A DNA stretch of 61,964 bases from Candidatus Competibacteraceae bacterium. Lineage in GTDB: Bacteria; Bacteroidota; Bacteroidia; CAIKAF01. The notes beneath the pieces are model-generated. The model had not been told where the DNA came from. It did no database searches and was given only the letters and a program-made list of their open reading frames with translations. Shown here piece after piece: positions 58,686 to 61,787 of the stretch. The DNA is taken from NCBI GenBank assembly GCA_014879445.1, contig JACSSC010000021.1, positions 1 to 61,964 on the forward strand, given 5' to 3'. Every line of letters starts with the position of its first letter. Position 1 is the stretch's first letter. The translations under genes were made by a program, and so were the position numbers.

Positions 58686-60320
<1,635 letters not shown>

Positions 60321-60500: not shown

Positions 60501-61787
60501 ATGAAAAAAATTCAGAAGCTAATCTGTGTAATTACCATCATGTGCGCTTACCCCCTGATGTCAGTTTCAGCACCAACAAATGCCAATGTTTATGTAAGAA
60601 AATCTGGGAAAAACATAATGTACCAACTAGTATTAACCGAAAATCAAACATTTACTTACATCAAAAAATCAAAAAGTAAATCCTACACCGAAAAAGGAAC
60701 TTACACTCAAAAAGGGAAAAAAATCATTCTAACACCCATCGAAAAATCAAGAGGTTTTGGAGGTCTTGGAGATTATGTTTTATATCTGCATAAAGAAAAA
60801 ATATATGCTAAAAAAACAGACATTATATTCAACAAAGTGCCTCTTTTTACGTCAAGTAATGAACCTTATACTTCAGACGATAATTCAAATACTACCCGAA
60901 TTGAAAGCTCATCCCATCAAGGAAACAATAGCTCAGGCCCTGTAGATTTAAAACATTCAGCCATGTCAACTCAAAATTATTACAAGCGATTGTGCAAAAA
61001 TTATGTGCCGCAATATTTAGCCCTCATTGATAGTTTCTATGCAGGCCCCGACACATACAAAACCTATATAAATAATCAGCACATTGAATGGAATGGCGAC
61101 ACATCTCATAACGTGCTATTGAGTAATTTCAATACCGTTATCCATGAAAGTTTGCATCACTACAACCGATATAGCAGTAATGGCGACTATATATATATGA
61201 TTAAACCCGGAGAATTTATTCGGGTTAAAATAACAAAAACTTTTCAATCTGAGAGATTCAAAAAATTAGTACCCAATGACGCTGAGAAAAACATTTTCAG
61301 GTACAAAACCTACGTGTCCGAAGGCGCAGTGGTAAGCGCCAATGTGGTTGGCATATATGGGCTGATGGATGAGTTTATTGCATATGGATACGGTACACGT
61401 AGTTCAATGGATCTAGGCAACAAATTGCTCGAAATGAATCAAGATACGGCCTCTGCAATTACGCTTTATAAGCAATCATTAGCAACCGGTTTTGCTCAAT
61501 ATGAATTTAACCTTTTCATGGCTTGGTATCTGCACTATGCATCAGTATATGAGAAAGAAATATACGAATCATTAATGAATAATCGCCCTCTTCGATATTT
61601 ATATTACACAGTAAATCGTGAATTTGAAGCTACAAACCGCCAATTATCCATTCTCAGCCAAAAATATGATAACGAGCTTGGATACATTAATAGGTACTAT
61701 ACAGAGAAATATACTGAATACCCAAAAAAATTATTAGAAAAAGAACAAAGCTACTTAGATCGCTTTATACTCAAGGAAAAGCCCTGA
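60501..61787 (+). CDS. Secreted protein with HExxH motif, putative zinc metallopeptidase
   Basis: A 428-residue exported protein with signal peptide about 1-24 (MSVSA). Residues 28-115 form a small beta domain (lipocalin-like strands LVLTENQTFTYIKKSKS, GTYTQKGKKIILTP). A Ser/Asn-rich linker spans 118-150. From 155 on the protein is helical: NTVIHESLHHYNRYSS holds an HExxH motif (H215, E216, H219), and 71 residues later LMDEFIAYGYG offers E291 as a third ligand, the layout of gluzincin peptidases. The C-terminus (about 365-428) is Tyr/Glu/Lys-rich helix. No T9SS sorting domain. No named family recognised; peptidase activity is inference. Confidence 0.65.
   Translation: MKKIQKLICVITIMCAYPLMSVSAPTNANVYVRKSGKNIMYQLVLTENQTFTYIKKSKSKSYTEKGTYTQKGKKIILTPIEKSRGFGGLGDYVLYLHKEKIYAKKTDIIFNKVPLFTSSNEPYTSDDNSNTTRIESSSHQGNNSSGPVDLKHSAMSTQNYYKRLCKNYVPQYLALIDSFYAGPDTYKTYINNQHIEWNGDTSHNVLLSNFNTVIHESLHHYNRYSSNGDYIYMIKPGEFIRVKITKTFQSERFKKLVPNDAEKNIFRYKTYVSEGAVVSANVVGIYGLMDEFIAYGYGTRSSMDLGNKLLEMNQDTASAITLYKQSLATGFAQYEFNLFMAWYLHYASVYEKEIYESLMNNRPLRYLYYTVNREFEATNRQLSILSQKYDNELGYINRYYTEKYTEYPKKLLEKEQSYLDRFILKEKP

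Follow-up and report, generated by a model that had tools for sequence, protein, structure and literature searches.

A candidate family of exported HExxH metallopeptidases with a gluzincin-type site, scattered across bacterial phyla

The gene analysed here probably encodes an exported metallopeptidase with a gluzincin-type site, belonging to a family for which the libraries searched contain no matching model. Every complete relative examined, including those found without search patterns, keeps its HExxH motif and a downstream glutamate, E291, and the family is patchily distributed across several bacterial phyla. What we infer from this evidence are the metal, the ligand set, the peptidase chemistry, the extracytoplasmic location and the role of the protein. 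The window, meaning the whole stretch of DNA analysed (61,964 nt), makes up one entire contig (G000:C35) of a 2.69-Mb genome, and the list of open reading frames gives the gene as a single uninterrupted frame from start to stop (Table 1).

Table 1. Features of the HExxH gene and its product, in window coordinates (residue numbers refer to the full-length protein).
Feature	Position	Strand	Basis or remark
HExxH protein CDS	60501..61787	+	ATG start, 428 aa plus stop; ORF list and translation
Probable signal peptide, about residues 1-24	60501..60572	+	Read from sequence: basic N-terminus followed by a hydrophobic segment
NlpE/lipocalin-like beta domain, residues 28-119	60582..60857	+	Strands in full-length model; VIA; sub-threshold Pfam NlpE
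Ser/Asn-rich linker, residues 127-144	60879..60932	+	pLDDT <50 in full-length model
Putative catalytic core, residues 145-428	60933..61784	+	AlphaFold2 model; 54-row alignment A2
HExxH, H215-E216-S-L-H219	61143..61157	+	54/54 A2 rows and 15/15 pattern-free genes; helix 210-221; two proposed metal ligands and proposed general base
R267 to Y271	61299..61313	+	R267 49/54, Y271 54/54; candidate substrate or transition-state residues
ExxA, E291 to A294	61371..61382	+	E291 is the proposed third ligand; helix 285-311 of full-length model
E335	61503..61505	+	Second conserved acid; possible second-shell or substrate contact

Conservation of the HExxH and glutamate signature

The first-pass annotation had pointed to an HExxH+Glu zinc site with a 71-residue spacer, and this arrangement is present: HESLH occupies residues 215-219, E291 lies within LMDEF, and 71 residues separate H219 from E291. 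HExxH appeared by chance in 194 of 20,000 composition shuffles of the window protein, so that the single sequence alone is weak evidence for such a site. Scanning genome contigs with short conserved peptides gave 53 loci, a lower bound given the method. The alignment A2 comprises the window core and 53 relatives, which are 18-51% identical to the window protein, in 54 distinct core rows; it leaves out L052, whose contig ends before HExxH, L054, whose reading frame is split, and duplicate copies of genes already included (L001, L060, L007, L008, L027, L029 and L047). The two overlapping pieces of L054 (3592-5090), a spirochaete relative, point either to a disrupted gene or to a fault in the assembly.

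HExxH and E291 occur in all 54 rows, at an H219-to-E291 spacing of 65-98 residues. Eight columns show no variation at all (H215, E216, H219, Y271, G284, G287, L288 and E291), and R267, I285, A294, Y295, E335, F336, Y343 and Y355 are conserved in at least 90% of rows. The third position after E291 is Ala in 52 rows and Ser in two, the fourth is Tyr in 53 of 54, and GI[YF]GL precedes [DE]E in the same number. E335 is Glu in 50 of the 54 rows, with Gln in L044 and L061, Asp in L041 and Tyr in L058.

The patterns used for retrieval included GI[YF]GL[MLI][DE]E[FLM], which 53 of the 54 rows fit; retrieval itself therefore accounts for part of the invariance of G284, G287, L288 and E291, and the hypergeometric value, 2.6e-7, is too favourable. 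HExxH, R267, Y271, A294 and Y295 lie outside the retrieval patterns; of the four columns that are invariant there, three belong to HExxH, for which the chance probability is 1.3e-6. E291 is also present in all seven A2 rows obtained without patterns, the window included.

A pattern-free search of 395 genomes with the A2 profile recovered 15 genes beyond the alignment, one of them in two broken pieces (L176/L179); the profile itself holds the motif, so members without it may be under-sampled among these genes. H215, E216, H219, Y271, E291, A294 and Y295 are kept in all 15, R267 is kept in 14, and E335 is replaced by Asp in one. The retrieval pattern is broken in 11 of them, L288 being replaced by Ile or Met in several and L177 carrying Ala at G284 and Asn at D290, which indicates that E291 has been retained while its neighbours drift.

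Distribution, domain architecture and genomic context

Titles of the 53 loci name Bacteroidota, Bacillota, Spirochaetota, KSB1, UBP9, Gammaproteobacteria and a few other bins, although such bin labels may err. Among 60 genomes compared, six held a match: the source genome, all three others of its genus and two of 44 drawn from elsewhere in the class; the 12 genomes from other genera of the family had none. Two of the three congeneric relatives are only about 25% identical to the window protein and lack the N-terminal domain. Of 395 genomes from the phylum, two matched a small profile, A1; of 395 from the class, 21 matched the larger A2 profile. Both counts include the source genome. In a tree built from the 54 cores, the four labelled phyla cluster (8 changes versus 16.9 when shuffled), with 13 rows in no group; none of the four forms a single clade. 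Viral contigs gave 95 pattern matches and no true relatives. The plasmids searched held a single match to the L046 core, CP028515.1; this plasmid-borne relative (CP028515.1:49964-51259), from Carboxydocella thermautotrophica, is annotated only after a C-terminal domain of copper-amine-oxidase type. Two family members stand in tandem in a gammaproteobacterial bin (L053:4401-6714).

The small N-terminal beta domain and Ser/Asn linker described in the first-pass annotation are borne out by the full-length model (pLDDT 88.0, pTM 0.70), which places strands at about residues 28-119, followed by a low-confidence stretch at the linker. With VIA, residues 28-119 aligned to E. coli NlpE (2z4h; Z 8.3, rmsd 2.8, 75 residues aligned); 3lhn also reached Z 8.3, with other small lipocalin-like proteins nearby. 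The likeness to NlpE and small lipocalin-like lipoproteins concerns the fold of this region only. The domain differs from NlpE in being fused to a metallopeptidase-like core, and the Pfam NlpE model (PF04170) scores 16.8 bits against the window protein, below its gathering threshold of 22, and matches one of ten members at E up to 1. The ten A3 sequences with the NlpE-like domain make up exactly one supported clade (100/99). Members outside A3 have from 78 to 483 open-frame residues before HExxH, mostly fewer than 130.

Additional domains above cut-off were found in three of 20 full-length relatives scanned: Cu_amine_oxidN1 (L046), Big_2 (L026) and CN_hydrolase (L022). The last of these, in a KSB1 relative (L022:4728-6713), lies C-terminal to the HExxH core in the same open frame (E 8.3e-36), and the product could possibly be an exported enzyme that cleaves amides in two steps. 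By a crude rule, 43 of 55 members have signal-like N-termini, three of them with a lipobox-like motif. Together with the extracellular domains fused to three of the relatives, these N-termini suggest a location outside the cytoplasm, and proteins of the family are probably exported.

The HExxH gene is flanked by a divergent gene for an ABC-F-type ATPase, so named from reading its sequence (58686-60311, minus strand), and on its other side by a tRNA-Leu-like sequence that runs off the contig end (61896-61964, plus strand, anticodon TAG; recognised by eye, with no ARAGORN call). In a congeneric species (G003) the same ATPase gene is likewise divergent, next to a near-full-length relative with 49% identity. 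Promoter- and terminator-like sites were no more numerous than in shuffles. Across the family loci no conserved operon partner emerged, nor any hint of a substrate, the largest common neighbour set comprising five loci; 14 of 20 nearby genes scanned received a Pfam name at E 1e-4, and these names form a miscellaneous set. In a further genome (G001), the gene directly upstream of the relative (L005:3-1028) has a C-terminal sorting-like tail and reads HEVGHYLGLRH, which we take to be a metzincin/pappalysin-like motif.

Comparison with catalogued families and solved folds

The window protein had no match over cut-off in Pfam-A, where NlpE scored best, or in NCBIfam (best 11.9 versus 109.85 bits), in agreement with the first-pass annotation, which had recognised no named peptidase family. 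Scans of the 54 core members against Pfam, NCBIfam, PADLOC and PHROGs identified no family matched by more than one member. Several single-member matches pass 0.001, under names that are unrelated or absent; the lowest is phrog_1365 (1.9e-6), which a PHROGs scan of 10 of the 54 members did not trace to a particular member. One core member touches Peptidase_M4 (Pfam, E 0.022), and Peptidase_MA_2 (PF13485) has two sub-threshold loci. Searches of PDB sequences, run with the profile, the window protein and four relatives as queries, returned nothing meaningful. Three signature peptides are absent from the open-licence literature searched, and among the matches listed there we recognised no family as the same as this one. 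The metzincin motif HExxHxxGxxH/D occurs in none of the 54 A2 rows.

The AlphaFold2 model of the core (mean pLDDT 95.1, pTM 0.92) is largely helical. In core numbering, a long helix is predicted at residues 3-24, followed by helices at 66-77 (HExxH at 71-75), 141-169 (E291 at 147) and 188-206 (E335 at 191), and several long helices come after the glutamate helix; the only strands are two short pairs at residues 44-51 and 85-99. Foldseek searches of the PDB with the core and full-length models gave no match at E ≤0.001 among the best 50 listed for each, and the same held for the best 50 listed against BFVD. VIA, which re-ranks Foldseek candidates only, placed mostly designed helical proteins, SNAREs and CorA beside the core. 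No convincing match to a solved zincin fold appeared among the rows listed by either tool for the core or the full-length model.

The features shared with gluzincins (MEROPS subclan MA(E)) are HExxH, a glutamate far downstream in a second helix and the ExxA register, following the definitions in PMC6414381 and PMC3890501. In the former, the third ligand Glu stands three residues before a small turn residue. Ala or Ser occupies this position in all 54 A2 rows, and Glu and Ala are both kept in the 15 pattern-free genes, a correspondence at the level of sequence; in the confident core model HExxH and E291 are each predicted to lie within a helix, as expected of an active-site and a glutamate helix. 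The family differs from gluzincins in Tyr at the fourth position after Glu, in the several long helices predicted after the glutamate helix and in that no zincin fold match was found among the rows listed. Less sheet is also predicted for it, two short strand pairs against the three strands highlighted for the gluzincin N-terminal subdomain in PMC6414381. The resemblance to gluzincins proposed in the first-pass annotation is supported for the site, with E291 in an ExxA context; for the fold, no solved zincin stood out among the rows listed. Likewise, its suggestion of a new gluzincin family is upheld insofar as library models leave the proteins unmatched and the site is of gluzincin type, whereas no zincin match among those listed supports membership at the level of fold. 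The elastase lipoproteins of FP0506 type from Flavobacteriaceae are, according to PMC6414381, also exported proteins of Bacteroidota; they carry HExxH and ExxA and have been placed in no family. FP0506, as described there, has 296 aa and is linked by HHpred to PF04228 and M48, while the family here, compared with it by description only, has no M48 match in Pfam.

A divergent member of a known gluzincin family (e.g., M13, M48 or a DUF zincin), hidden by sequence divergence, seems an unlikely identity for the protein. In hhalign comparisons of A2 with profiles of M48 (27 sequences), M13 (26), M1 (29) and DUF2268 (4), HExxH aligned on HExxH for all four families at probabilities of 1.8-11.4, the best of which overlaps the weaker of the true pairs among these families (5.9-78.5): A2 versus M13 gave 11.4, equal to M13 versus M1 and above M1 versus M13 (8.0) and M13 versus DUF2268 (5.9). 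Scores for M13, M48 and M1 also exceeded all 40 column shuffles. However, probabilities fell to 0.1-0.4 once HExxH was masked, a masking applied to the A2 comparisons alone. The score of 16.4 against M48 for the part after HExxH (maximum of 30 shuffles, 12.1) was given no weight, as it aligns C-terminal helices with an M48 stretch that precedes HExxH. The profile similarity to M13, M48, M1 and DUF2268 thus rests on the HExxH motif, and at this level of comparison common descent with gluzincins would be neither shown nor excluded. Kinship with M13 (the neprilysin family) was considered because of the H-to-E spacing and the profile score, the highest of the four; the spacing in PepS (H535 and E592; PMC4701951) is close to the lower end of the 65-98 residues found here. 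This candidate was rejected: once HExxH was masked the kinship was unshown, VNA of the substrate-binding motif VNAxx precedes HExxH in two of 54 core segments (up to 70 upstream residues), and the ENxxD motif is absent throughout, with Asn directly after Glu in 0/54 rows and Asp at the fourth position in 0/54. In M13, according to PMC4701951, it is this Asp, four residues after Glu, that bonds a ligand His.

A metal enzyme of another chemistry, such as an amidase, a deformylase or a helical oxygenase, could also use HExxH, E291 and perhaps E335, and to this we assign little probability. The mainly helical core, the extra conserved acid E335 and the amidase-type CN_hydrolase domain in the frame of one relative would be consistent with such an enzyme, and HExxH is itself no proof of a peptidase: fatty acid desaturases, for example, are not peptidases. 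They are counted among predicted zincins in PMC3650047. The best and longest VIA alignment of the core (protein residues 145-405) was to PDB 22ob, SjiH with Ni (Z 7.9, rmsd 4.5, 178 aligned), but Z values in this range are, by the tool's own warning, frequent among helical models. The literature searched contained nothing relevant on SjiH, and none of the PDB sequence searches listed 22ob. The register of ExxA after HExxH is, moreover, the gluzincin one, and E335 is not invariant, as its replacements listed above illustrate. An inactive metal-binding or structural protein would fit the finding at family loci of neither a conserved operon partner nor a hint of a substrate, but is highly improbable, given that E216, which would act in catalysis and not in metal binding, is kept in all 54 rows and all 15 pattern-free genes.

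Proposed mechanism and significance

For the favoured reading, an exported metallopeptidase with a gluzincin-type site, a mechanism can be proposed in which every chemical step is transferred from the known families compared above. In favour of this reading, PMC3650047 states that all Pfam domains with HExxH in the majority of members could be predicted as zincin-like. H215 and H219 on the active-site helix and E291 on the next long helix, in its ExxA context, would hold a single metal ion, most likely zinc. E216 would activate a metal-bound water for attack on the peptide bond, and R267, Y271, Y295 or E335 may assist in substrate binding or in stabilising the transition state. The NlpE/lipocalin-like domain on its flexible linker would be an accessory of a Bacteroidota subgroup, perhaps serving in substrate or surface binding. 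The patchy distribution, export, varied accessory domains and lack of fixed neighbours make a nutrient or envelope peptidase more likely than a component of a fixed pathway.

PMC3650047 argued that more HExxH metalloprotease families may still await discovery. With its 54 cores and 15 additional genes, its spread over several phyla, its clear signature and a confidently modelled core, the family described here is a concrete candidate for one of these. Exported proteins now unassigned or misnamed, such as the Carboxydocella protein named after its appended domain, would become testable metallopeptidases. It is rather doubtful that these exported enzymes of several phyla carry their zincin-like HExxH+Glu site on a helical scaffold foreign to solved zincins, whether through independent origin or through extreme remodelling of the active site. 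The family makes it possible to test directly whether HExxH peptidases can be built on any scaffold other than the zincin fold.
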